From NCBI RefSeq assembly GCF_021390195.1, contig NZ_CP090003.1:2873501-2937500 (forward strand): a stretch of DNA of 64,000 bases. The letters are read 5' to 3'. Below are positions 1,920 through 31,337 of the stretch, piece by piece. The translations under genes and the position numbers were made by a program. This DNA comes from Flagellimonas sp. CMM7 (GTDB lineage: Bacteria > Bacteroidota > Bacteroidia > Flavobacteriales > Flavobacteriaceae). The notes below the pieces were generated by a model, which was not told where the DNA came from, ran no database searches, and saw nothing but the letters and a program-made list of their open reading frames with translations. Position 1 is the stretch's first letter; every line of letters starts with the position of its first letter.

Positions 1920-2082
1920 TCCCCACTTTTTAATTGCATATCAAAAGCAAAAGGACTGTGATTGAAGGTCCTGACTTTTGGTGTTCAATTTTCATCATTT
2001 GAAAGCTTTCTGCTTCTAAAGACAGATAAGTTTTCACCATTCCCCGTTTTTAAAATCCAATTTGTCAAATACAATCAATACA

Positions 2083-3165
2083 ATGAAGAGAATTTCTAGC
2101 ATTATGTTACTGCTTGTACTCGTTAGTTTCGGTAGTTGCAAGCATCACAAAAAAGAACACAAAGAAGAGGTCAAGCATTTAGTGACCAGTCCAATAAAAA
2201 TGGACACCATCATTACCAAAGACTATGTCAGTCAAATCCATTCCATAAGGCATATAGAACTAAGAGCCCTTGAGAAAGGATACCTACAAAAGATTTCTGT
2301 GGATGAAGGGCAATTTGTAAAAAAAGGACAGCCCATGTTTAAGATAATGCCAAACGTATATCAAGCTGAATTGAAAAGAGCTGAAGCCGAGGCCGATGTT
2401 GCTGCCATAGAGCTTAAGAACACGAAACTATTAGCAGAAAGCAAAGTCGTGTCGCCAAATGAATTGGCTATGTCCAAAGCCAAATATGAAAAAGCCAATG
2501 CCGAAGTGACCATGGCTAAGACCCATCTTGGATTTACCAATATTAAAGCGCCTTTTGATGGTGTCATGGACCATTTGCATGTACGGGAAGGAAGCCTTCT
2601 GGATGAAGGCGAACTATTGACCACCCTATCCGATAATAGTAAGATGTGGGTGTATTTCAATGTTCCTGAAGCTGAGTACCTGGACTATATCACTAATGGT
2701 CATAAAGATGATAAAACGGTGGTTAGTCTGTTAATGGCAAATAACCGAGAATTCAATCACAAAGGAATTGTCGAAACCATCGAGGGAGAGTTCAACAATG
2801 AAACAGGAAATATTGCTTTTAGGGCTACATTTCCAAATCCTGATGGTATTCTAAGACACGGCGAAACAGGTAGCATTCTTATAAAAGTACCTCTTACGGA
2901 TGCTTTGATTATACCTCAAAAAGCCACCTTTGAGGTGCTTGATAAGAAATTTGTTTTTGTTCTGGATAAGAATAATATCATCCGTCAAAGAGAAATTACC
3001 GTTGGAGCCGAACTACCACATTTATTTGTGGTGGAAAAAGGTCTTTCCGAAAAAGACAAAGTGCTTTTGGAAGGCATCCGACTGGTAAAAGAAGGTGAGC
3101 ATATTGCTTATGATTTTCTACCTCCGGAGGAAGCCATTTCAAACTTGGAACTCTACGCAGAATAG
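2083..3165 (+). CDS. RND efflux periplasmic adaptor (membrane-fusion lipoprotein)
   Basis: Links the inner-membrane RND pump to the outer-membrane channel. I start it at the ATG at 2083, because that gives a proper lipoprotein signal peptide ending SFGSC (cysteine at the lipobox); an upstream TTG at 2062 would only add seven polar residues. HlyD-like organisation is visible: a lipoyl half-motif (GYLQKISVDEGQFVKKGQP), an alpha-hairpin rich in A, E and K around residues 90-145, the second half-motif (IKAPFDGVMD), then a beta-barrel and membrane-proximal domain. It is the first gene of a three-gene operon, with 24 nt before the pump gene. The substrate cannot be told from sequence; AcrA/MexE-type drug efflux is the nearest description. 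Confidence 0.9.
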   Translation: MKRISSIMLLLVLVSFGSCKHHKKEHKEEVKHLVTSPIKMDTIITKDYVSQIHSIRHIELRALEKGYLQKISVDEGQFVKKGQPMFKIMPNVYQAELKRAEAEADVAAIELKNTKLLAESKVVSPNELAMSKAKYEKANAEVTMAKTHLGFTNIKAPFDGVMDHLHVREGSLLDEGELLTTLSDNSKMWVYFNVPEAEYLDYITNGHKDDKTVVSLLMANNREFNHKGIVETIEGEFNNETGNIAFRATFPNPDGILRHGETGSILIKVPLTDALIIPQKATFEVLDKKFVFVLDKNNIIRQREITVGAELPHLFVVEKGLSEKDKVLLEGIRLVKEGEHIAYDFLPPEEAISNLELYAE

Positions 3166-3189
3166 TCCAACCTTAAAATTCCATTAGAA

Positions 3190-6100
3190 ATGTTCAGTAA
3201 GTTTATAAAACGGCCAGTATTGGCCATAGTAATCTCTGTTATCATTGTTTTTACAGGATTACTGTCTATCAATAAATTGCCTACATCGCAGTTTCCCCAA
3301 ATTGCACCTACAACGGTAAATATCTTCATAGCTTATCCTGGGGCCAGTGCCGATGTATTGGTAAAATCGACCTTGATTCCATTGGAAACCTCCATCAACG
3401 GCGTACAGGGCATGCGGTATATTGCTTCGGATGCTACTAGTGCAGGCGAAGGAACGTTGCGTATCATTTTTGAACCTGGTACAGACCCCAATCAAGCTGT
3501 GGTTCGGGTAAAAACCAGGGTTGACCAGGTTATGCCTTTGTTACCGCCTTTGGTACAACGTGAAGGGGTCATCATCACGCCAGTACAACCAAGTATGCTC
3601 ATGTACGTGAACCTGTATAGTGATGCCAAGAAGAATGACGAAAAGTTTCTCTACAACTACGCCTACACGAAAATTGTTCCAGAACTACAGCGCATTAATG
3701 GTATAGCAAGTGCCAAAATATTGGGTAGCCGAAAATATGCAATGCGTGTATGGTTGAAACCAGATAGAATGCGAGCCTATAATATCTCTGCAGAAGAAGT
3801 GCTAGAAGCTATGGACGAGCAAAGCATTATAGCACGACCAGGAAGGTTGGGAAGAAGTTCAGGTAAGCAGGCACAATCTCTAGAGTATGTGTTGACCTAC
3901 GAAGGACGCTATAATGAAGCAGACCAGTACAAGGATATCATCATTAAAGCTAATGAAGAAGGAGAAATTCTTAAGCTGAAAGATATTGCCGAAGTAGAAT
4001 TAGGAAGTGAATTTTTTGATATTTATTCCAACCTTGATGGAAAACCATCGGCATCCATTGTTTTAAAACAAACCTTTGGAAGTAATGCCAGTGATGTTAT
4101 CGACACCGTAAAAGACAAGCTGAAAGAGCTTGAAGAATACCTTCCACCAGGAGTCGATTATAAAATCAGTTATGATGTATCCAATTTCCTCGATGCATCC
4201 ATAGAACAAGTGATGCATACCCTTCGGGATGCTTTTATTCTTGTGGCAATTGTGGTATTCCTGTTCTTAGGGGATTGGCGGTCAACCCTCATCCCGATTA
4301 TTGCCGTGCCTGTTTCCTTGATTGGTGCCTTTTTCGTGATGCAGTTGTTCGGTCTTTCCATCAACCTGATTACATTATTCGCACTGGTATTAGCCATAGG
4401 TATTGTGGTGGATGATGCCATTGTGGTAGTCGAGGCGGTACATGCCAAAATGGAAGAGGAACATCTTGGCCCTTATCAGGCCGTAAAAAATGTTATCAGC
4501 GAAATTGGTGGTGCCATCATTGCCATTACTCTGGTAATGGTATCGGTTTTTGTTCCTATTTCCTTTATGACAGGTCCTGTTGGTGTATTCTACAGACAGT
4601 TTTCCATCACGATGGCAGGTTCTATCATTATTTCCGCTGTAGTGGCATTGACGCTTACTCCTGTACTATGTGCCATGATATTGAAGAACAACCATGGACA
4701 GCCTAGAAAGAAATCCCCCATCAATCGTTTCATTGACTGGTTCAATACAAGATTTGAGAGACTTACGGGCAGATATGTGAATTTCCTGAAATTCATCGTG
4801 AACCGAAGAGTGCTCACCTTCGGAATCCTGTTGGCGTTCTGTGCCGGGATATTCTTTACGAACAAGTCATTGCCTGCAGGATTCATTCCCAACGAAGACC
4901 AGGGAACTATCTATGCTATCATACAAACTCCCCCTGGTGCCACATTGGAGCGCACCAATGAAGTGGCCAGAAACTTGCAACGTTTATGCGAAGAAATGGA
5001 AGATGTTGCTTCGGTTTCATCACTGGCAGGATATGAAATCATGACGGAAGGACGTGGCTCCAATGCAGGTACCTGTTTGATAAACTTGAAACCATGGTCT
5101 GAACGGGAAAAATCGGTTCATGAAATCATGGAAGAACTGGAAGAGGGAACCAAAGACTTGGGCGCGGTTATTGAATATTTCGAGCCCCCTGCCGTGCCTG
5201 GCTTTGGGTCTTCTGGAGGATTCTCCATGCGCCTATTGGATAAAACCGATGGTACGGATTATCATGAATTTGAAAAAATCAACAATGCCTTTATGGATGC
5301 CCTGCGCGAACGCAAGGAACTCACAGGACTCTTTACCTTCTTTGCCGCCAATTATCCACAATATGAATTGGTCATCAATAATAAGGCAGCGATGCAAAAA
5401 GGGGTGTCCATTGGTAAGGCCATGGAAAACCTGAATATCCTTATCGGAAGTACCTACGAACAAGGATTTATCCGATTTGGACGATTCTTTAAGGTGTATA
5501 CCCAAGCGGCACCCGAATACAGAAGATTGCCGTCCGATTTGGAAAAACTCTTTGTGAAAAATGAGATTGGGGAAATGGTATCCTATTCCTCGTTTATGAC
5601 CCTTGAAAAACGATTGGGACCTAATGAGATTACACGGTATAATCTATACAATTCTGCTGCTATCAGAGGGTTGCCAGCTCCAGGATATACCAGTGGGGAT
5701 GCCATTAAAGCCATTCGGGAAGTAGCGGAACAAAACTTGCCACGGGGATATGATATCGCCTGGGAAGGGCTGTCCTATGACGAAGCAGGTAGGGGAAATG
5801 AATCCATCTACATTTTTACCGTGGTATTAATATTTGTCTATCTGGTTCTGGCAGCACAATACGAGAGCTTCTTGTTGCCACTGGCGGTTATCCTATCATT
5901 ACCCGTTGGGATATTCGGTTCCTTTTTGTTGCTCAAACTTATGGGGCTTGCCAATGATGTGTATGCACAGATTGGATTGATAATGCTAGTAGGTCTTCTG
6001 GGTAAGAACGCGGTGCTTATTGTAGAATTTGCGGTGCAAAAACGTCGTGAGGGAGTTAGTATTCTGGATGCGGCCATAGAAGGTGCTAAAATGCGTTTCC

Positions 6101-6423
6101 GTCCTATTTTGATGACTTCATTTGCCTTTATCGCAGGATTGATTCCATTGGTCATTGCTACAGGTGCAGGAGCTATTGGAAACCGAACCATTGGGGGTTC
6201 CGCTATGGGCGGCATGCTCATAGGTACCTTAATAGGTGTCCTGATAATCCCAGGTCTCTACTACATTTTTGGAAAAATGGCAGATGGTCGAGGACTCATC
6301 AAAAATGAGGCTGATGAACCTGTTTCCGAAGAGTTTGTTAGAGCCTCCGAAGAAGCCATTAAAACTAAAACCCAGTTAAGACAGTTGTTGTCAAAACTGA
6401 CTTCAAGAACAAAAAATAAATAA
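3190..6423 (+). CDS. RND multidrug efflux pump, inner-membrane transporter (AcrB/MexF type)
   Basis: Proton-driven trimeric exporter of hydrophobic or amphiphilic compounds. The 1,077-residue length is normal for the HAE-1 family. The N-terminus [16 protein letters not shown] is the classic first helix. Membrane blocks occur around residues 335-500 and 865-1030, separated by two large periplasmic loops. The family motif [14 protein letters not shown], carrying the proton-relay Asp pair in helix 4, is present, and a helix 10 [14 protein letters not shown] segment supplies the relay Lys. The gene sits between its adaptor and its outer-membrane partner; the stop codon is directly followed by the ATG of the next gene. 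As ICE cargo it would confer transferable efflux. Specificity is unknown. Confidence 0.96.
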
Positions 6424-7860
6424 ATGACCATGTTTAAATATAGAATACGAAACATACTGCTTTTGCTTTTGGTAGTGCTGGCATGCTCATGCGCATCTAC
6501 CATAAAAGTGAGGGAAGCAAACACAACGGTACCCGAACAGTATCGAGGACAATCAATCGATACGGTGAATAGTGCTTTGGTAAACTGGAAAAATTTCTTT
6601 TCCGATGTACATCTTATAGCACTCATAGATACAGCTTTGGTCAATAACCAGGAGTTGAACATTTTCTTGCAGCAAATGGCAGTGGCCAAAAATGAAATAA
6701 AGGCACGAAAGGGAGAATACCTGCCATTTTTAAATTTTGGTGCAAGTGCCGAAGTTGAGAAAGTGGGAGAATTTACCCGAAAGGGAGCGATTGAAAAAAA
6801 CCTGCCTGTTCGAGAAAGTGAAGCGTTCCCGGAACCTTTGTCCAATTATACATTGGGATTGACAGCTTCCTGGGAACTTGATGTTTGGAAAAAGCTCCGT
6901 AATTCCAAAAAGGCGGCTGTCATGGACTATCTGGCTACAGTCGAGGGCAAGAACTTTATGGTCACCAATCTGGTTGCTGAAATAGCGGACGCCTATTATG
7001 AATTGGTAGCCTTGGACAATCAATTGGCCATCATTGAACAGAATCTGGAAATTCAACAAAATGCTTTACATATTGTTAGACTTCAAAAACAGGCAGCTAG
7101 AGCCACAGAGCTGGCCGTAAAACGATTTGAGGCCGAAGTGCTAAAAAATATAAGTGGAAAGTATGGGATTAAACAACAGATTATTGAAACCGAAAACAGA
7201 ATCAATTTCCTGTTGGGTAGGCAACCTTCCCAAATTGACCGAGCCTCGGGAAATTTTATGGAAAGTGTTGTTGACGCACTATCGGCAGGAATTCCAGCTC
7301 AGTTGCTCAGTAATCGCCCCGATATTAGAAAAGCAGAGTTTGAGTTGGGAGCTGCCAAACTGGATGTCAAGGTAGCAAGAGCTAATTTTTATCCCTCATT
7401 TGGTCTTAAGGCTGGTGTAGGTTTGGAAGCTTTTAAACCTAAATTCCTGACATCGACCCCAGAATCTTTGCTTTATAGTTTGGCAGGAGATGTAGTGGGG
7501 CCTCTCATCAATAGAAATGCCATAAAGGCTGAATATAACAGTTCCAATGTCAGACAGCTTCAAGCAGTTTTTGAGTATGAGAAAACGATTTTAAACGCCT
7601 ATTTGGAAGTTGTCAATGGGCTTTCCAATATTGAAAACCTAAAGAAGAACTATGAGTTTAAAAATCAGCAGGTAGATGCATTGACCAAATCCATAGAAAT
7701 ATCCAACAAATTGTTTCAGTCGGCTCGTGCGGATTATATGGAGGTGTTATTGACCCAGCGTGATGCCCTGGAATCAAAAATTGAATTGGTAGAAACCAAA
7801 AAAGAACAATTAAAAGCCAGAGTAGTTGTATTTCGCGCTCTAGGTGGTGGTTGGAAATAA
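6424..7860 (+). CDS. Outer-membrane efflux factor (TolC/OprM family lipoprotein)
   Basis: Forms the trimeric channel through the outer membrane for the RND pump encoded just upstream. Length is 478 residues. The signal peptide ends in a cysteine-rich lipobox region (VLACSCAS), so it should be lipid-anchored like OprM. Two outer-membrane-efflux repeats are visible, with the typical LLSNRPDIRKAEFELGAA motif near residue 295 and long heptad-like helices rich in A, E, Q and L. Start choice: ATG at 6424 immediately after the pump stop, or ATG at 6430, which changes only two residues. It completes the operon 2083-7860. Confidence 0.93.
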   Translation: MTMFKYRIRNILLLLLVVLACSCASTIKVREANTTVPEQYRGQSIDTVNSALVNWKNFFSDVHLIALIDTALVNNQELNIFLQQMAVAKNEIKARKGEYLPFLNFGASAEVEKVGEFTRKGAIEKNLPVRESEAFPEPLSNYTLGLTASWELDVWKKLRNSKKAAVMDYLATVEGKNFMVTNLVAEIADAYYELVALDNQLAIIEQNLEIQQNALHIVRLQKQAARATELAVKRFEAEVLKNISGKYGIKQQIIETENRINFLLGRQPSQIDRASGNFMESVVDALSAGIPAQLLSNRPDIRKAEFELGAAKLDVKVARANFYPSFGLKAGVGLEAFKPKFLTSTPESLLYSLAGDVVGPLINRNAIKAEYNSSNVRQLQAVFEYEKTILNAYLEVVNGLSNIENLKKNYEFKNQQVDALTKSIEISNKLFQSARADYMEVLLTQRDALESKIELVETKKEQLKARVVVFRALGGGWK

Positions 7861-13521: not shown

Positions 13522-15126
13522 ATGGCCATACCAGTAATTGATATATTTGCTGGTCCCGGTGGTTTAGGCGAGGGTTTTACAAGTATAGTCAATGATGATA
13601 ACGAAAGAAAGTTTGAAATAGCCTTATCCATTGAAAAGGAATACTATGCTCATCAAACACTTACTTTAAGAAGTTTCTATCGTCAATTTGACCTAGGTGA
13701 AGCACCAGAGGATTATTATAGATTGCTCAAAGGTGAAATCACCCTAGAAGAATTGTATGAAAGATGGCCAGAGCAGGCTCAATTTGCAAAAAATGATGCT
13801 TGGTTGGCTGAACTAGGCGATGGAGAGAACTCTATTTCTCCAGAAGAAGTGGATACTCGGATAATACAAGCATTGGATGGAGAAGAAAACTGGTTGCTCA
13901 TAGGTGGACCGCCTTGTCAGGCATATTCCGTAGTAGGTAGATCAAGGCGTCAAGAAAAAATTCTAGACGGGAAGAAAGATGAAAGAGTTGAGCTTTACAA
14001 ACAATATTTGAGGATTTTGGCTGTCCATAATCCATCCATTTTCATAATGGAAAATGTGAAAGGATTATTATCTGCGGAAACCGAAGAGAGCCCAGTTTTT
14101 GCCCGTATTCTTGAAGACTTGAAAAACCCAGTCGCATCCTATGAATTGGACTATGGCGAGAATGATGAAGCACTTGCTTGCCCCGGTTATAATGTATTTT
14201 CTTTAACATCAAGGCCATTATCGTTTGATATTGAAGGCAATCCGGTTAACAAGCATAAGGACTATATCATACAATCAGAAAATTTCGGTATTCCTCAAAC
14301 TAGACATAGGGTTATCCTGCTGGGAATACGAAAGGGTTATGAGATTACTCCAGATGTTCTTCAATCACAAGATGAGGTGCCTATATCTGATGTTCTTAAC
14401 GGCCTTCCAAGACTTAGAAGTGGTCTTTCAAAAATTCAAGATTTAAATGAAAACTGGCTTAACGTAGTTACTCAGATTGCTGACACAAAACTATTAAGTC
14501 AAGTAGGGTCTAAGGTTGGAGATGAAATTGCCCGTCAAGTAAATAGATTGAGACTTCCTCAAAAAGGAATTGGATCTAACTTTATTGGTTATAGGAATGT
14601 CAGCCCAACATATAATCCCGATTGGTTTATTGATAATAGGATAGGTGGGGTTTGTAATCATCAATCAAGAGGTCACATGGAAAGCGATTTACACCGTTAT
14701 TTTTTCGCATCATGCTTTGCCAAAGTGAAGAAAAAATCTCCAAGACTAGAGGACTTTCCAGCATCACTATTACCAAATCACAAAAATGTTCAAGAGGGAA
14801 TCAAGGATAAGAAATTTGCCGATCGTTTTAGGGTACAAATCTTAAACAAACCTAGCAAAACAATTACCAGCCACATTTCAAAAGACGGGCATTATTATAT
14901 TCATCCGGATGCTACACAATGCAGAAGTCTAACGGTTAGAGAGGCTGCCCGAATTCAGTCTTTTCCGGACAATTACTATTTCTGCGGCCCCAGAACAGCA
15001 CAATTTGTTCAAGTAGGGAATGCAGTTCCTCCCCTACTTGCAAAAAAAATAGCAATTATAGTTGATGATATGTTTCAGCAAATTGAAGAAGAAGTTCAAG
15101 AAACTCAGCTATCAGAAACCATATAA
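13522..15126 (+). CDS. DNA cytosine-C5 methyltransferase
   Basis: Transfers a methyl group from S-adenosylmethionine to C5 of cytosine in a specific DNA sequence. Motifs appear in the normal order: motif I DIFAGPGGLGEGF (residues 5-17), motif IV GGPPCQAYS with catalytic C132, motif VI MENVKGLL, motif VIII QTRHRVILLGIR, a target-recognition region about residues 280-440, and motifs IX/X ending in QVGNAVPPLLAKKIA. At 534 residues it is longer than HhaI-type enzymes because of a long insert between motifs I and IV and a large recognition region. As first gene of the MORC/Z1 cassette it most likely protects host DNA by modification. The recognition sequence cannot be deduced. Confidence 0.95.
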   Translation: MAIPVIDIFAGPGGLGEGFTSIVNDDNERKFEIALSIEKEYYAHQTLTLRSFYRQFDLGEAPEDYYRLLKGEITLEELYERWPEQAQFAKNDAWLAELGDGENSISPEEVDTRIIQALDGEENWLLIGGPPCQAYSVVGRSRRQEKILDGKKDERVELYKQYLRILAVHNPSIFIMENVKGLLSAETEESPVFARILEDLKNPVASYELDYGENDEALACPGYNVFSLTSRPLSFDIEGNPVNKHKDYIIQSENFGIPQTRHRVILLGIRKGYEITPDVLQSQDEVPISDVLNGLPRLRSGLSKIQDLNENWLNVVTQIADTKLLSQVGSKVGDEIARQVNRLRLPQKGIGSNFIGYRNVSPTYNPDWFIDNRIGGVCNHQSRGHMESDLHRYFFASCFAKVKKKSPRLEDFPASLLPNHKNVQEGIKDKKFADRFRVQILNKPSKTITSHISKDGHYYIHPDATQCRSLTVREAARIQSFPDNYYFCGPRTAQFVQVGNAVPPLLAKKIAIIVDDMFQQIEEEVQETQLSETI

Positions 15127-15150
15127 CCTAATAAAACATGAAATTGCTCA

Positions 15151-16299
15151 TTGACGAATAGTTACAAAATAGGACATAATTACAAGGACATTTTAAGTGT
15201 TTCTAGGGAAAATGACCAATTTGTCTCGTGGTTTTCCTTAGATGAAAGTGGCATTGGTAATTCCGGTGGTATTAGAGCGGCAAAATATTTGAATATTGTT
15301 TCTCATCTACCTTGTTATATAGTATTGATAACTAGAACTATTTCTCACAGGTGGTATAATCCATGGGAAGATATTGTTGACTATTCAACTGGATTTATTT
15401 TTTATTGGGGAGATGCAAAGTTCAGTAGTAAAAAAAATTACGAACAATTTAGAGGGAACAAACATTTGCGAAATGTTTTTGATAAGGTATTAGAAAACAA
15501 ACTAAGTGAAGTGCCACCAATTTTACATTTCTCGAAAGTAAAAAGTGGATTGGTAAAATTTAATGGTTTATGCGCTTTAACCAATCTGGAATTGACTTGG
15601 TTTGAAGACAAAGGAAATCCTGTTAAAAACTATCGTTGTGAATTGACAATACTTGATATTGAACAAGTCCAACTTTCATGGCTTCATGGCCGAGTAAATT
15701 GTAAGGCAGAGGAAGCCCTAAATGAAAAAGCTCCAAAAGTCTGGAGAGATTATATCAAAGGGAATATTAAAAAGCTAGATATCTGGTCCAAAAGCCTTTA
15801 TAGTAAGGAGGAGCAACTACCTAGTGAAGATAGCAAAGAAGCTTCTTTGTTAAAAAAAATCAACAAGCTTAACCCAACTCAATTTGAAGCCTTCGTTGTT
15901 GAGCTATTTCGTAATCTACCACATGTAAATCATAAAATCATACGGACTAGGCCAACCGCTGATGGGGGATTTGATTTTTACGGACGCTTTACTATACCAT
16001 ATCCAATAAAGTATGAGATTGAATTTTTAGGTGAAGCAAAAAAGTTTGCTCGAAATAATGCAGTGCAACCTAAACACGTATCAAGATTGGTTGCAAGACT
16101 AAATCGTGGTCAATATGGTTTGTTTGTGACTACTTCTTATTATACAAAACAAACACAAAAAGAAGTTTTAGAGGATGGTTATCCGGTTAGACTTTTTTCG
16201 GGAAATGATTTAATAAACATTATGCATGAGTTAAGACTAATTGAAGATGGAAAAATAAAAAAAGGATGGCTTGAAACGATTATAAAAGAAACTCTGTGA
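15151..16299 (+). CDS. Mrr-type restriction endonuclease with a separate N-terminal recognition-like domain
   Basis: A 382-residue predicted DNA nuclease. The C-terminal domain (about residues 240-350) is Mrr-like PD-(D/E)XK: TADGGFDFYG with D275 and then GEAKKF with E295-x-K297. Residues 1-230 form another domain with blocks YWGDAK, GNKHLRNVF and HFSKVKSGLVKFNGLC, which resembles the N-terminal domain of AspBHI-like, modification-sensing enzymes; I cannot confirm this without a profile search. No ATG exists near the 5' end; TTG at 15151 is the start. It lies 24 nt after the methyltransferase stop and overlaps the MORC gene by 4 nt. This should be the main nuclease of the cassette. Confidence 0.82.
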   Translation: MTNSYKIGHNYKDILSVSRENDQFVSWFSLDESGIGNSGGIRAAKYLNIVSHLPCYIVLITRTISHRWYNPWEDIVDYSTGFIFYWGDAKFSSKKNYEQFRGNKHLRNVFDKVLENKLSEVPPILHFSKVKSGLVKFNGLCALTNLELTWFEDKGNPVKNYRCELTILDIEQVQLSWLHGRVNCKAEEALNEKAPKVWRDYIKGNIKKLDIWSKSLYSKEEQLPSEDSKEASLLKKINKLNPTQFEAFVVELFRNLPHVNHKIIRTRPTADGGFDFYGRFTIPYPIKYEIEFLGEAKKFARNNAVQPKHVSRLVARLNRGQYGLFVTTSYYTKQTQKEVLEDGYPVRLFSGNDLINIMHELRLIEDGKIKKGWLETIIKETL

Positions 16300-17774
16300 A
16301 AATAGATCAGCTTAAGAAATTTGAAGGCGAAGAAGCTATTCCAAATGCGAAATCAATGATTGAAAGTTTTCGTTCTATAGGTTATAGTCTTCCAACGGCC
16401 ATTGCTGATATCATAGATAATAGTATAGCTGCCAAAGCTAAGAACATTTGGATTGATTTTCAATGGGCGGGACCCGAAACCTCTTTGGTAGTAACAGATG
16501 ATGGTAAAGGAATGTCAAAATCCCAATTAGTAGATGCAATGAGGCCTGGTTCAAAAAACCCTTTATTGGCTAGGAGCCAAGAGGATCTTGGAAGATTCGG
16601 TCTAGGACTTAAAACAGCTTCTTTTTCTCAATGTAGAAATCTTACTGTAGCAACCAAATCAAAAAAAACTAACAAAGTCAAATACAGGTGTTGGAATCTC
16701 AATTATGTAGCAGAAGTAAACAAATGGAAAGTTTTAAAGTATCTATCGGATGAAAGGCTTATTGCAAGACTGAACGGTTTAGAGTCGGGAACTTCAATCA
16801 TTTGGCAAAATTTAGACCGTGTCATTTCTATCAATGATGAGTATCCAGAAGAAGCTATGAATCAATTTCTGGAAAAAATTGAATTCATAAAAACTCACCT
16901 CAGCATGGTTTTTCATCAATATATAGAAAACCAAAAATTAACAATTTGGATTAAGGAGAGAAAAATCAATCCATGGGATCCATATTTAAAAGAAGAGAAG
17001 GCGACAAAGGTTGTTGAAAAATCTATAATCAATGATGAAATTGAAGTTGTCTCTTACGTATTGCCTCTACATTCCAAAATAGATAGGCAAGTTTTTGAAA
17101 ATGCCTCTGGAATCAAAGGCTGGAACTCTCATCAGGGTTTCTATATTTATAGGAACAACCGTCTTTTGTTAGCAGGTGATTGGTTGGGCATGTATAAACA
17201 AGAAGAACATTATAAACTTGCCAGAATATTTGTTAATATTCCCAATACAGTCGATGTGGACAACGCATGGCAATTGGATATCAAAAAATCAGTGGCTATG
17301 CCACCACCAGAGGTCAAAGTTAAGTTAAAAGAAATTGCAGATAAAGTAAGGAAAGAAGCCGTAGAAGTATATCGACAAATTGGCGTGAAGCGGCAAAGAA
17401 ACAACCATAAGAACAATATCCTCGTTTGGACGGATAAAAAAAGTAAGGGAAGAAGATTTTATCAAATCAATAGAGCTCATCCGATTATAAAAAACTTTCT
17501 TTCAAACCACCCGAGTAGCAAAGCAAAATTAAATAGACTATTTCGAATTATCGAGGAAACAGTACCACTTCCTTTAATTGTCTCCAATGAAACTGAAAAC
17601 AATGATTTCCAGACAACACCATTCGAAGGAAAAGCTAGTTCGGATATGGTCAAAATGATTATTGAATTATATGAAACACATATCTCGGTAGGAAAAACAA
17701 GGGATGAGGCGATAGATGAAATATTAAGAACAGAACCCTTTGCACATTATCCAGAACTAATCGAAAATATATGA
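16296..17774 (+). CDS. MORC-like GHKL-family ATPase of the restriction cassette
   Basis: A 492-residue protein with a GHKL (gyrase/Hsp90/histidine kinase/MutL) ATPase domain at the N-terminus. The N box is D38-IIDN42, the G1 box DDGKGM at 68-73, and the G2/lid GRFGLGLKTASFS at 99-111. An S5-type middle domain with KIDRQVFENASGIKG and a basic NNRLLLAGDW segment follows, then a helical C-terminal part. There is no histidine-kinase phosphoacceptor domain, so it is a MORC/MutL-like DNA clamp rather than a sensor kinase. The GTG start overlaps the nuclease stop and its own stop overlaps the next ATG. Probably it binds or loops DNA to license cleavage by its nuclease neighbours. Confidence 0.88.
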   Translation: MKIDQLKKFEGEEAIPNAKSMIESFRSIGYSLPTAIADIIDNSIAAKAKNIWIDFQWAGPETSLVVTDDGKGMSKSQLVDAMRPGSKNPLLARSQEDLGRFGLGLKTASFSQCRNLTVATKSKKTNKVKYRCWNLNYVAEVNKWKVLKYLSDERLIARLNGLESGTSIIWQNLDRVISINDEYPEEAMNQFLEKIEFIKTHLSMVFHQYIENQKLTIWIKERKINPWDPYLKEEKATKVVEKSIINDEIEVVSYVLPLHSKIDRQVFENASGIKGWNSHQGFYIYRNNRLLLAGDWLGMYKQEEHYKLARIFVNIPNTVDVDNAWQLDIKKSVAMPPPEVKVKLKEIADKVRKEAVEVYRQIGVKRQRNNHKNNILVWTDKKSKGRRFYQINRAHPIIKNFLSNHPSSKAKLNRLFRIIEETVPLPLIVSNETENNDFQTTPFEGKASSDMVKMIIELYETHISVGKTRDEAIDEILRTEPFAHYPELIENI

Positions 17775-18295
17775 TTTTAGATCTTACAGAACTTGAGCTT
17801 GGAAAACATCATAATTTAACCCCGGCAATGGGTGCAAATCTGTCTCATGCAGCCGCTGTATGTATCAATGACAGAGGTCATTCAAAAAATACCTCTGCTA
17901 CTGGAAAAGGAGTATATACTAGAAATTATATTTTAAAGAGGTGCGATGTAACTGATGAAATAAAAAGAACGTGGGAAGATATGCAGGAGGCAACTGAAGA
18001 GGGTGCTTGCGGTGTGGCTCTAGTTCAGGTAGCCAAGGAGTCAAAATATCAGGTAATCGAACGTTCGCGAAAAGGAACCGGAATAGATTACTGGTTAGGG
18101 GATAATGATAGTTTCCTTTTTCAGCGTAAAGCAAGGTTGGAGGTCTCTGGTTCATTGAATGGAGATGAAGGTGAGTTGAATAAGCGGCTAAAAATAAAGA
18201 TAGAACAAACCAAACAATCTGACTCTACAAAATTGCCTGTGATAATTGTAATTGTAGGATTCGCACAACCCATGATGTTAACCGCTGAAAGATGA
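17771..18295 (+). CDS. Small putative PD-(D/E)XK protein of the MORC/Z1 cassette
   Basis: A 174-residue protein with no family I can name with certainty. The arrangement GTGIDYWLG (D106), then FQRKARLEVSG with Q118-x-K120 and E124, has the spacing of a restriction-endonuclease fold core in which the usual Glu is Gln. An upstream conserved-looking EEGACGVAL block supplies a possible E76/E77. It overlaps the MORC gene (ATGA) on one side and the Z1 gene (ATGA) on the other, so it is certainly co-translated with them. It may be a second nuclease subunit or an inactive DNA-binding partner. The active-site assignment is inference. Confidence 0.6.
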   Translation: MILDLTELELGKHHNLTPAMGANLSHAAAVCINDRGHSKNTSATGKGVYTRNYILKRCDVTDEIKRTWEDMQEATEEGACGVALVQVAKESKYQVIERSRKGTGIDYWLGDNDSFLFQRKARLEVSGSLNGDEGELNKRLKIKIEQTKQSDSTKLPVIIVIVGFAQPMMLTAER

Positions 18296-21200
18296 AAGAA
18301 GAATATATAGAAAAACGACATAAACTTGCAATGGACTTTGCAGAAATGGCAATTCTTGCAAAAAGAAATGAAGATTTAGAAAAGTTTGAAGAATATTCTA
18401 AAAAAGCGATGGAATATGAAAAGCAGGCGGCCATAGAGCTTTTTAGTGAGCAAATTGAACCCACTCGTTCAGTACTATTTAGAAGTGCTGGACATCTGGC
18501 ACTGGATAATGCAGATTATATCGAAGCACAAAAACTCTATGAATATGCTTTAGAAGGAAATCCACCAACCGAAATTTCGACTGAATTGAGGGAGCTTAAA
18601 GTTGAGATTGATAGGATAAAATTGGAGAACGAAAAGTTTACTGAATTTATAATAACACTGTTAAAGGGTAAAAAAATCCCCATCGACCAAACAGATATAG
18701 ATGATGCTTTCAAGAGAGCCATGCTTGCCTTTAGAAAACAAGATATTAATGAACCACACATCAGAAAGTATATTGAACAGCAGTATACCATTGAATCCGA
18801 TCCGTACACCATTTTAGATGAAGGGTATTCTCCATGGATTGATAAGTCAACTAAACAGAACTGGAAATATTGGAACAGATACAAACAGTTTTTGCAAAAA
18901 GAAGAACAGTATGCGCCTGATACCATAGACAAAATTGACGATATAACAGATGATATCTTAGATCATTTGAAGAACCCTTTGGAAGATGGGTCATGGGATA
19001 AAAGAGGAATGGTAGTTGGACACGTACAATCTGGAAAAACCAGTAACTATTTGGCTTTGATAAACAAAGCAGCAGATACGGGTTATAAAATAATCATCGT
19101 ACTTACTGGAATGTACAATGACTTACGTGCACAAACCCAATTTAGGATAGACAAAGGGTTTCTTGGATTTGATACCCAAGTCGAAAGAAGGCTAGTAGCT
19201 TCTAACAAATGGGGGGTGGGTAACTATGACTCAAGCTTGATTCCAACTCCACTTACCTCGAGCGATCTCGATGGAGATTTTCAAAGGAGTCCAGTACCAA
19301 TTGATGGTATAGGACCCTTTGTTTTTGTAATCAAAAAAAATAAGTCAGTGATGGAAAAACTGATAAGACAGTTAGCCTCTTCAGGGGAATCCATTAGTGA
19401 TAATAAAAAAGTAATAAGATATTCAGCATTGATAATAGACGATGAAGCTGACAATGCCTCAATTAATGTAAGTAAGGATAGTGTATCCACAATAAATGGT
19501 TTAATCCGATCTCTTTTATCTCTGTTTCAAAAAAGTGGCTATGTTGGATATACGGCCACTCCATTTGCTAATATTTTTATTCCAGTTCCAGATAATTTTC
19601 AATCAATAGAACCTGGAGTTAATGTAAATCAGCCTGATTTTTTTAGGCAATCAGGAGAAGATTTGTTTCCGAGAGATTTTATTATAAATATTCCCCCACC
19701 TTCTAACTACATTGGGCCAAAACAAGTTTTTGGAATTGATACCAACCTCGTCGAAGATCTTGAAGAAGCATATAAACCACTTCCCATAGTAAATGAGGTA
19801 AATGATTATGATACCTCAATACCCGACAGACATAAACATTGGGACAGTCTCCCGGAGTTCCTTCCCAATAGTTTGAAATATGCTATTAAATGCTTCATAC
19901 TTTCATGTGCCATAAGGCGAACCAGAGGACATTTTACAAAACACAATTCCATGTTGGTTCATGTTACCAGATTTGTACGGTGGCAGGATAAAATAGCTTA
20001 CTTGATTAACGAAGAATTAAAATCTTACCAAAGACAAATAGAATATAAAGAGGGAGATATATTCTCGGAACTTAAGAAAATATGGGAAACAAATTATGCC
20101 ACAGTAACAGATTCAATTATTCTTGATGAACGTTATGATGACCCTTTCATTAAAAATCATCAATGGTATGAAATCGAATCACAAGTTCACAAAGCGGCAT
20201 CAAAAATTGAAGTTAGAGCTGTTCATGGTAATAAAAATGAGACGGAACTTAAACATAAAAATATAACCCCACTGGACTATTATGATAATAGAAATAATGG
20301 ACTTTCCGTTATTGCTGTCGGTGGAAATAAGCTATCTAGAGGACTTACACTGGAAGGGCTTACTATAAGTTATTATTTGCGGGCATCTAAAATGTATGAT
20401 ACATTAATGCAAATGGGGCGCTGGTTTGGTTATCGGCCTGGGTATTTAGATTTGTGTAGGGTTTTTACAAGCAAAGAACTAAAACAGTGGTATCGATTCA
20501 TTACAATTGCTTCAAACGAATTAAGAGAAGACTTTGAAGAGATGAATAATTTACGGAAATCACCAAGAGAATTTGGTCTTAAAGTACGACAACACCCTGA
20601 TGTTCTTAAAATTACAGCAACCAACAAATTTCGATACAGTCATAATATGGTCCTTAGCTTTTCTGATAAATTGAGAGAAACTTCTCGTTTTATTCGGGAT
20701 AGAAATATTATAGAAAATAACTTCAACCATACAGTAGACTTCATTAATAATTTAGGTTATCCAGTGAATAATAACCATCAGCCATATGTCTGGCAATCTG
20801 AGAATAACTTCAATCAGGTGATTAACTTCTTAAAAGGGTATATCCGTGAAGAAAATCCTATTGAAAATGAGAAGATTATTGAATACATTGAAAAGCAGGC
20901 CTCTAACAACAACTTAACGAACTGGTCAATTTGTTTAGTTTCCACGAAAAAAAATGCTGAGGATGTTCATTTTAAAATAGAAGGAGTACCCGTTCCACTA
21001 GGCCTAACTATGCGTACTGACATAGAAAAAGGAGAGGGTAAATACTATATCATGGCCAAAAGTCATATTATTGATCCAAGACATGAATTTGTAGATATAC
21101 CAGAGGATAGTCCTATTTACATTAAAGCACTAGAAGAAACAATTCAAGACTGGAATTTAAGTGAAAGAAATAATAAAAGCGAAACCCCGCCCAAGTTTCC

Positions 21201-21432
21201 TTCTGGAAAAAATATTAGAAAATATAGAGGTGCTAAAAATGGATTGCTATTGATATACCCTCTTAATCCAAAACCAAATGGATGGGAAGACTCACCTTTT
21301 AGTGTTCCAATTATTGGTTATGCAATTAGTTTTCCTAAGAATGATAGTGAGATAAAAGTAACTTATTCGGTAAACAATGTCTTCAAAGAAGAATATGAAT
21401 ATGAGGCAGAACTTGATGTTATAGAAATTTAG
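18292..21432 (+). CDS. Z1-domain helicase-like ATPase of the restriction cassette
   Basis: A 1,046-residue superfamily-2-like ATPase with the Z1 domain. Walker A is GHVQSGKTS at residues 243-251, the Walker B/DEAD box is IDDEAD ending at D387, motif III GYTATPFAN follows, and the Z1 signature LSRGLTLEGLTISYYLR with MGRWFGYR lies in the second half. The N-terminal 150 residues are helical and coiled-coil-like (K- and E-rich, TPR-like). It ends the five-gene cassette. Z1 proteins are known from gene-neighbourhood studies to accompany MORC ATPases and restriction nucleases. Here it probably acts as the DNA-translocating motor. Its stop is followed after 6 nt by the nested repeats. Confidence 0.9.
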   Translation: MKEEYIEKRHKLAMDFAEMAILAKRNEDLEKFEEYSKKAMEYEKQAAIELFSEQIEPTRSVLFRSAGHLALDNADYIEAQKLYEYALEGNPPTEISTELRELKVEIDRIKLENEKFTEFIITLLKGKKIPIDQTDIDDAFKRAMLAFRKQDINEPHIRKYIEQQYTIESDPYTILDEGYSPWIDKSTKQNWKYWNRYKQFLQKEEQYAPDTIDKIDDITDDILDHLKNPLEDGSWDKRGMVVGHVQSGKTSNYLALINKAADTGYKIIIVLTGMYNDLRAQTQFRIDKGFLGFDTQVERRLVASNKWGVGNYDSSLIPTPLTSSDLDGDFQRSPVPIDGIGPFVFVIKKNKSVMEKLIRQLASSGESISDNKKVIRYSALIIDDEADNASINVSKDSVSTINGLIRSLLSLFQKSGYVGYTATPFANIFIPVPDNFQSIEPGVNVNQPDFFRQSGEDLFPRDFIINIPPPSNYIGPKQVFGIDTNLVEDLEEAYKPLPIVNEVNDYDTSIPDRHKHWDSLPEFLPNSLKYAIKCFILSCAIRRTRGHFTKHNSMLVHVTRFVRWQDKIAYLINEELKSYQRQIEYKEGDIFSELKKIWETNYATVTDSIILDERYDDPFIKNHQWYEIESQVHKAASKIEVRAVHGNKNETELKHKNITPLDYYDNRNNGLSVIAVGGNKLSRGLTLEGLTISYYLRASKMYDTLMQMGRWFGYRPGYLDLCRVFTSKELKQWYRFITIASNELREDFEEMNNLRKSPREFGLKVRQHPDVLKITATNKFRYSHNMVLSFSDKLRETSRFIRDRNIIENNFNHTVDFINNLGYPVNNNHQPYVWQSENNFNQVINFLKGYIREENPIENEKIIEYIEKQASNNNLTNWSICLVSTKKNAEDVHFKIEGVPVPLGLTMRTDIEKGEGKYYIMAKSHIIDPRHEFVDIPEDSPIYIKALEETIQDWNLSERNNKSETPPKFPSGKNIRKYRGAKNGLLLIYPLNPKPNGWEDSPFSVPIIGYAISFPKNDSEIKVTYSVNNVFKEEYEYEAELDVIEI

Positions 21433-21438
21433 TAGGAA

Positions 21439-21716
21439 TAACGACCCGCTAGACGTAGTTCCGGGATTTTTAAGGAAATATAGAGAAATGGCTCAACAAT
21501 GTTGCAAGAAATGGACTTCCGGTGTCTCGTGTGGCATTGTTTGCCAAGTAGGTCCCACAGGGACCGTTACTTGTCCATTTTGCGGTATTGGGAGTAAAAA
21601 TTTCGGGATCAAATTACCGTTTAGTGCCCTGTTATGGTACGTTGCCGCTTGAGCGACTCCATTGCCCGAAGCTCCATGGAGCTCTTCGCACCGTAATTTG
21701 GTTTAGCGGGTCGTTA
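21439..21716. repeat. Inverted repeat enclosing a structured region after the defence cassette
   Basis: TAACGACCCGCTA at 21439-21451 is perfectly inverted as TAGCGGGTCGTTA at 21704-21716, and the arms extend 3 nt inward with one mismatch. Within it CAAATTAC (21610-21617) pairs with GTAATTTG (21693-21700), directly adjacent to the outer arm. GGTCCC-ACA-GGGACC (21551-21565) is a perfect hairpin, and AGCTCCATGGAGCT (21670-21683) is a palindrome. The stretch 21433-21905 contains no long gene and looks richer in G+C than its surroundings. It is either a structured RNA or 3'-untranslated region, or a folded DNA recombination site; I do not recognise it. Confidence 0.75.
21488..21652 (+). CDS. Possible 54-residue cysteine-rich protein
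   Basis: An ATG-started frame of 54 codons inside the structured region, beginning MAQQCCKKW. Six cysteines lie at positions 5, 6, 15, 19, 29 and 32. The last pair is in a CPFC motif, which together with C15-x3-C19 suggests a zinc-ribbon- or knuckle-like fold. No ribosome-binding site or promoter can be pointed out, and the competing 67-codon frame at 21588-21791 looks less protein-like. It is unknown whether it is translated; the inverted repeats could instead make the whole region a non-coding RNA. Confidence 0.3.
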   Translation: MAQQCCKKWTSGVSCGIVCQVGPTGTVTCPFCGIGSKNFGIKLPFSALLWYVAA

Positions 21717-21792
21717 GGGTACATTTCTTTTGATGCGGGAGTGCTTTGGCACGTAGCGACAAAAGTCAGCCGAGGGCTGAATGTACCCTAAC
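21713..21792. repeat. Second long hairpin (80 nt) next to the first inverted repeat
   Basis: GTTAGGGTACATT (21713-21725) is perfectly inverted at 21780-21792. Inside, CTTTTG (21727-21732) pairs with CAAAAG (21760-21765), and GTGC-TTTG-GCAC (21741-21752) forms the tip. The result is one long interrupted hairpin whose left arm overlaps the outer arm of the preceding repeat by 4 nt. Confidence 0.7.
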
Positions 21793-28693: not shown

Positions 28694-29487
28694 AAACTAT
28701 AATCATAATCTCTATAACACTATGTACAAACCTTGTAGTAGCTCAGCAAACCTTGGATACCATTTATGCCAATGATAAAAAGAACGTCGCTCTGTTTTTT
28801 CCAGAACCCATTCGCCAAGGAGTTACAGGAACATCCAATTTTGTCTTTACCTATAACCGAGAAAAAGAGCAATATTTTGGATTGTTGCAGGCCACTCCAG
28901 GAACAGAGAGCAACTTGATTACAGTGACCAAAAATGGTCAGGTCTATTCCTATATTTTAAAGTATAAAGAGCAGTTACCAAAGCTGAATTATTTTCTTTC
29001 CGATAACGAAAGTATTGGAAATGAAAGACCAATTGCCAGGACCACAGAACCCCAAAAAATGGAAGTTTTTCCAAGCGATAAGGCCGATTATTACCAAAGG
29101 GCCTGTTCCTATCTGTTACGATCAAAGGGCGAACGCGTGGCGGTCAAACGTAAAAAAGGATTGAAACTACAGTTGCAAAAAATGACCTATTACGGTTCCG
29201 AGGTGTTCTTGGTCATAAAAGTTGCCAACCGGTCGGGTATCGATTTCGATATCGATTACCTCAAAGTCTTTACCGTAAATGGCAACAAAAAACGCAAGGC
29301 CTCCCATCAACGTTTGGAACAAAAGCCTTTCTACAAACACCAAATACCAACTTCCATAGCCCATGGCCAGATTCAACGTTTTGTTTACGTGCTTCCCAAA
29401 TTCGTATTAGGGAACGATGAAAAGTTGCAGGTGGAGATGAGAGAAAGGAATGGGAGTAGGGAAGTTGTTTTATCAACCCGACTATAG
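28690..29487 (+). CDS. traN: TraN conjugation protein (VirB9-like)
   Basis: A 265-residue periplasmic protein with signal peptide (residues 1-18, ending VVAQ). The family pattern TLDTIYANDKKNVALFFPEPIRQGV opens the mature chain, and a VirB9-type beta-sandwich follows (YYGSEVFLVIKVANRSGIDFDI). It forms the outer part of the channel with TraM. It is the last tra gene present: its stop overlaps the stop of the convergent integrase gene by 6 nt, so no traO, traP or traQ follow here. Confidence 0.9.
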   Translation: MKTIIIISITLCTNLVVAQQTLDTIYANDKKNVALFFPEPIRQGVTGTSNFVFTYNREKEQYFGLLQATPGTESNLITVTKNGQVYSYILKYKEQLPKLNYFLSDNESIGNERPIARTTEPQKMEVFPSDKADYYQRACSYLLRSKGERVAVKRKKGLKLQLQKMTYYGSEVFLVIKVANRSGIDFDIDYLKVFTVNGNKKRKASHQRLEQKPFYKHQIPTSIAHGQIQRFVYVLPKFVLGNDEKLQVEMRERNGSREVVLSTRL

Positions 29488-30702
29488 GTTGTTAGCCAAC
29501 TTTTCCTTCAAAACAGCCATATCCTCACTCACTTTTTTATTGATGATTTGGGCATAGTGTTGGGTCGTCCGTAAGTTTTTATGTCCCAGCATTTTCCCTA
29601 CTGTTTCAATAGGTACTCCATTTGTTAGCGTTACGGTAGTTGCAAATGTATGTCGTGCTAAATGAGTGGTCAGGTTCTTTTTAATATCACAAAGATCTGC
29701 AATCTCCTTAAGATAGGCATTGGCCTTTTGATTGCTCAACACTGGTAGCACACACTCCCCATTGATTACTTTGGGGTGGTCTTTGTACTTTTCCAATATG
29801 GCCAAAGCGGTTGGAAGTAGAGGAATACTAAATTTAGCATCAGTTTTGGTTCGCTTGGCTTCAATCCATAATTCTCCATCAATATTTCGAATGAGATTGT
29901 CCCGATTTAGTTTCTTTACATCTATGTAGGCCAGACCTGTATAGCAGCAGAAAACAAACATATCACGGACCATATCGATACGCGGCCATCTAATTTCAAG
30001 ATCTACCAATCGCTGCAATTCCTCAGTAGATAGAAACTCACGGTCCACCCATTTAAATTTCACCTTATAATTGTAAAAAGGGTCTCGGGCAATCCATCCA
30101 TTGGCCACTGCCAAACGAATAATCTTTTTGAAATTGTTGATGTACTTCAATGCACTGTTATGATTGCAATCCTTGACCGATTTCATAAAATACTCAAATC
30201 GGGTAATGAACTTTAAATCGACGTCTTCAACTGGTATATCTTCCCTCTTGTATTCATGTTGAACAAATTCTGCGATGTGATTTCTGGTGGTGAAATAACG
30301 TTTCCAGGTACCAAGTGCAAATTCCTTGTCGACTAGTTTTTTCATCTGCCGGTTATGTTCGTCAAAAACAACAAGTAACATTTTGACCTCTTTGTCCTTA
30401 CCTAAATAAATGTTTTTGACATCAAGGGCCGTAAATGGTTTTCCTTCCTCGACTAATTGAAACTGAATCTTATTTACCTTGGCCCTAATCATATCGAGAT
30501 ATTGATTCAATTGAACGGCTTCTGTTCCAGAACCACGCATCCTACCCCTCTTAGCGTTCCATTTTTCAGGGTCAACCTTACGGGAAATACTAAGTTCGCT
30601 TCGCTGGCCATTTATCGTCAAACGCAAGTATATCGGTACTTTCACATGTTTTTCAAAGTGTTTGCCTTTTAGGTAAAAGAGTTGTGAGAAAGAGGATTTC
30701 AT
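29482..30702 (-). CDS. int: Tyrosine recombinase (IntDOT-like ICE integrase)
   Basis: Integrates and excises the ICE at the adjacent ssrA 3' end. The 406-residue protein has an N-terminal arm-binding part, a SAM-like core-binding domain (about residues 105-210) and the C-terminal catalytic domain. Catalytic residues visible: H347-L-A-R350, H374 (GHKN) and nucleophile Y383. The first arginine box reads CYTGLAYIDV, with Ala where most integrases have Arg; the same loss is known for IntDOT. The gene is 239 bp from ssrA and transcribed away from it. The downstream end overlaps traN by 6 nt, tail to tail. Confidence 0.95.
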   Translation of the reverse strand: MKSSFSQLFYLKGKHFEKHVKVPIYLRLTINGQRSELSISRKVDPEKWNAKRGRMRGSGTEAVQLNQYLDMIRAKVNKIQFQLVEEGKPFTALDVKNIYLGKDKEVKMLLVVFDEHNRQMKKLVDKEFALGTWKRYFTTRNHIAEFVQHEYKREDIPVEDVDLKFITRFEYFMKSVKDCNHNSALKYINNFKKIIRLAVANGWIARDPFYNYKVKFKWVDREFLSTEELQRLVDLEIRWPRIDMVRDMFVFCCYTGLAYIDVKKLNRDNLIRNIDGELWIEAKRTKTDAKFSIPLLPTALAILEKYKDHPKVINGECVLPVLSNQKANAYLKEIADLCDIKKNLTTHLARHTFATTVTLTNGVPIETVGKMLGHKNLRTTQHYAQIINKKVSEDMAVLKEKLANNL

Positions 30703-30917: not shown

Positions 30918-30940
30918 AGTCTAGTTTGGTGTGCTAAAAG

Positions 30941-30965
30941 TGGAGCCGGAGGGAGTCGAACCCTC
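30941..30965. other. Presumed ICE attachment site in the 3' end of ssrA
   Basis: The 3'-terminal acceptor and T-arm sequence of the tmRNA gene is the usual target of elements with this layout. The integrase gene lies 239 bp to the left and tmRNA function is preserved across the junction. The partner copy would be at the other ICE end, outside the window, so the core length is not observable; coordinates mark the region, not a measured core. Confidence 0.5.
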
Positions 30966-31337
30966 GTCCAAACAAGCAAAGTCAGTGCTTTCTACATGCT
31001 TAGTCTTTATTCAGTTTTCGATGCACGACCGACCAAAGACCGCCTATCGTACACTTAGCTTCTTAAGGTTTTAGTGATGTTGCCAAAGCGAACAACATCC
31101 TTATGTTGACTTTTATGGTGCTCCAAAACGAATCGCCATCAACAAGGGCTATCCAGGAACATCTCGCTTCCCTACCTAGTAAGGACGAGGCTAAATCCTA
31201 CTATAATTCGGATTAAGCGGCAAGAGCGTAGTTATTATCGCCAATTAAAAGTGTGGAAAATGAGTTTAACGAGCTGTATCCCAGCGCTCGACATGCTTAC
31301 AATGCCATTGGTCTCGCTGTCAAAACCGGTCGGCCCC
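30941..31337 (-). ncRNA. ssrA: Transfer-messenger RNA (tmRNA)
   Basis: Rescues stalled ribosomes by acting first as alanyl-tRNA, then as mRNA. On the minus strand the RNA begins GGGGCCGACCGGTTTTGACA at 31337 and ends CGACTCCCTCCGGCTCCA at 30941, 397 nt in all. The seven-base acceptor stem pairs, with G3-U as the third pair, the alanine identity element; CCA is not encoded. The tag frame at 31242 down to 31213 reads GGC GAT AAT AAC TAC GCT CTT GCC GCT TAA, i.e. GDNNYALAA after the charged alanine, close to the GENN(F/Y)ALAA tags of this phylum. The T-arm GGTTCGACTCC lies near the 3' end. The ICE is inserted just downstream, and the 3' end remains functional-looking. Confidence 0.95.

Follow-up and report, generated by a model that had tools for sequence, protein, structure and literature searches.

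MzaABCDE has reportedly been described as an anti-phage system by Gao et al. 2020. The Mza names are also used in NCBIfam and PADLOC and in the available text of PMC9523054, where mzaA is present in only a few of the related systems. A third MORC operon class was delineated by Iyer, Abhiman and Aravind in 2008, comprising, in the accessible part of that paper, a MORC gene, an SF2-type ATPase with the motif DThhQxuRhFG and a C5 methylase (PMC2292703). Here, a gene cassette of Flagellimonas sp. CMM7, carried by an integrative and conjugative element (ICE), is compared with these systems; coordinates refer to a 64,000-nt window (NZ_CP090003.1, positions 2,873,501 to 2,937,500) unless marked as genome positions (Table 1). 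The cassette seems to be an anti-phage restriction cassette of a known type; the two genes that usually end it have apparently given way to a gene for a small protein, X, and a gene for an SRA-Mrr nuclease, predicted to cut methylated DNA, is added.

The locus shares the MORC gene, the SF2-type ATPase and the C5 methylase with the operon class of 2008, and the co-occurrence of MORC, Z1 and restriction genes that the original prediction had credited to these authors matches this class (PMC2292703, accessible part). The clustering of methyltransferase (MTase), Mrr, MORC, PD-(D/E)XK and ATPase genes described in that prediction was confirmed, while its interpretation of the cassette is supported in part. 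The MzaC-like ATPase, foreseen as a Z1 ATPase, bears Walker A at 243, Walker B at 380 and, at 703, DTLMQMGRWFG, which matches the motif of the class. The predicted MORC/GHKL ATPase was likewise recovered by Pfam and PADLOC and displays the motifs IADIIDNSI, DDGKGM and GRFGLGLKTAS. In contrast, the restriction endonuclease-fold gene of the class has E-D-ExK, where this locus has X with E-D-E-x-S, and the SRA-Mrr gene has no counterpart by name, 'Mrr' having 0 occurrences in the accessible text of PMC2292703.

PADLOC identified the MORC/MutL ATPase as MzaB-like; its NCBIfam equivalog score of 411.7 does not reach the cut-off of 850, and the MzaC-like ATPase scores 619 against 1500. Within window positions 5001-30000, no MzaD PD-(D/E)XK protein (five MzaD queries, phmmer E<=1e-5), no MzaE AIPR protein (three AIPR queries) and no MzaA sigma-like protein (one query) were found. 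The locus thereby differs from predicted system types I and II, whose third core gene PD-(D/E)XK and AIPR, as given in the available text of PMC9523054, were not found in it. Comparison of X with a 17-row MzaD profile gave an hhalign probability of 0.7%.

Table 1. Features of the cassette and of the surrounding element
Feature	Position	Strand	Evidence
C5-cytosine DNA methyltransferase, 534 aa	13522..15126	+	PF00145 4.1e-42
SRA-Mrr protein, MspJI/AspBHI family, predicted 5mC-dependent nuclease, 382 aa	15151..16299	+	PF18062 (RE_AspBHI_N) 1.8e-43, PF04471 (Mrr_cat) 4.1e-13
MORC/MzaB-like GHKL ATPase, 492 aa	16296..17774	+	PF13589 1.7e-31; PADLOC MzaB 1.2e-99
X, PD-(D/E)XK-fold, no Pfam family, 174 aa	17771..18295	+	Fold assignment
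Y segment	18292..18621	+	Matches Y proteins adjoining X elsewhere
MzaC-like SF2-type ATPase	18790..21432	+	PF10593 1.2e-82; PADLOC MzaC 5.1e-162 over 167-1038
Segment downstream of MzaC-like ATPase	21440..21792	+	DNA fold z -5.3
ICE tyrosine integrase	29482..30702	-	Phage_integrase 7.9e-16, Arm-DNA-bind_5, SAM_5
Right attachment repeat, 19 bp	30936..30954	+	Exact direct repeat of L060:4205-4223 = genome 2857705-2857723
tmRNA (ssrA), integration target	30940..31337	-	ARAGORN; Rfam RF00023 154.7 bits at 30938-31337

The added gene had been called an Mrr-type nuclease; the Mrr domain is indeed present, and the protein is more exactly an SRA-Mrr of the MspJI/AspBHI type, sharing with these enzymes an SRA-like 5-methylcytosine (5mC) pocket and an Mrr catalytic domain. 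It matches the AspBHI structure 4oc8 at 2.7e-38. The 5mC pocket of AspBHI is formed by N63, W69, D71, Y82, Y83, G84, D85 and R87 (PMC4499157, accessible part). Seven of these eight positions are aligned and kept, as W72, D74, Y85, W86, G87, D88 and K90, with W for Y83 and K for R87; N63 is not alignable. All 13 of the 13 SRA proteins compared have the same W, D, Y, G and D, an aromatic residue where AspBHI has Y83, and K or R at the final position. A catalytic (E/Q)xK-type motif is present (DGGFD at 271, GEAKK at 294), and the DGG-D...(E/Q)xK type occurs in 12 of the 13, the C-terminus of L043 being different. Since the pocket residues and the Mrr motif are kept, SRA-Mrr should, judging from sequence, read 5mC. 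On a Thalassospira marina plasmid (L033:2398-14262), an MzaA-like sigma gene, MzaB-E, SRA-Mrr and a C5 MTase form one co-directional run; this Mza locus thus carries a predicted 5mC-dependent nuclease.

X falls within the PD-(D/E)XK superfamily by fold, as anticipated for the 174-residue protein, and D106 and E124 are invariant; the position of the catalytic lysine is Ser126. Small and so far undescribed, X resembles a nuclease and may dock with the motor protein. Alternatively, X could have a structural or regulatory role, or form a toxin-antitoxin-like pair with Y, with cleavage performed by another protein. We regard this as unlikely, even though Ser replaces the ExK lysine in 87/87 rows and X–Y also occurs on plasmids apart from restriction genes and with Y in fusion to a sugar transferase. 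The fusion lies on a Hymenobacter radiodurans plasmid (L017:8803-10238), directly after X; its enzyme part is a bacterial sugar transferase (PF02397 2.8e-52), and the X–Y module there thus plugs into an unrelated enzyme. An AlphaFold2 model of the Y segment comprises five helices (pLDDT 92.4); tetratricopeptide repeat proteins were among the top Foldseek rows, all weak matches.

The cassette is flanked by RteC/DnaC-like genes on one side and by an amidase gene and tra genes of the conjugative element on the other. The integrase gene adjoins the transfer-messenger RNA (tmRNA) gene, whose 3'-terminal 19 bp have an exact second copy at genome 2857705-2857723. The element thus spans ~46.7 kb (2857705-2904454) and has the 3' end of ssrA as its insertion site. 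The cassette is therefore ICE cargo, as originally proposed. The element also encodes an RND efflux set of HlyD-type, AcrB-type and outer-membrane efflux proteins (2062-7860). The segment at 21440..21792 has three more copies or fragments in its own genome and is matched in 11 of the 70 genomes from the genus, a count that includes this one. Some restriction–modification systems kill cells that lose them. Given this established addiction and the position of the cluster as cargo, the genes might serve to stabilise the ICE by killing cells that lose it, rather than defence, which we consider highly improbable.

The cassette MTase carries motif strings at residues 7, 128 (PCQ), 176 (ENV), 259 and 496, which we take to be motifs I, IV, VI, VIII and X. 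The host genome has four PF00145 matches, two of them within this MTase, and hence three C5 MTase genes; the other two lie at G000:C1:1936973-1938169 and 119270-120376. SRA-Mrr might instead act with the adjoining MTase as in a classical restriction–modification pair, cutting the unmethylated motif while the MTase protects the host; this would fit its 24-nt gap to the MTase gene and 4-nt overlap with the MORC gene. MspJI itself, whose gene adjoins a cytosine MTase gene thought inactive, was at first taken for such a partner, according to the available text of PMC3874153. The retention of all alignable 5mC-pocket residues, together with a collinear cassette (L002) that lacks the SRA-Mrr gene yet keeps the MTase, makes this quite improbable. 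The two proteins could also act as writer and reader of 5mC, with SRA-Mrr cutting DNA methylated by the cassette MTase; both genes lie in one co-directional cluster, and in 9/13 inspected loci a C5 MTase gene lies no more than ~12 kb from that for the SRA protein. This too is improbable: besides the absence of SRA-Mrr from L002, the MTases near SRA-Mrr are very different (325 to 534 aa), and three plasmid loci have SRA-Mrr at the edge of the cassette, encoded on the opposite strand. General 5mC cutting would moreover be lethal because of the two further C5 MTase genes, if these are active.

According to the accessible part of PMC3874153, type IV enzymes are found together with MTases that act in other contexts. 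With three C5 MTase genes in the genome, SRA-Mrr, as a predicted 5mC reader, must be selective for context or kept in check if the other two MTases are active.
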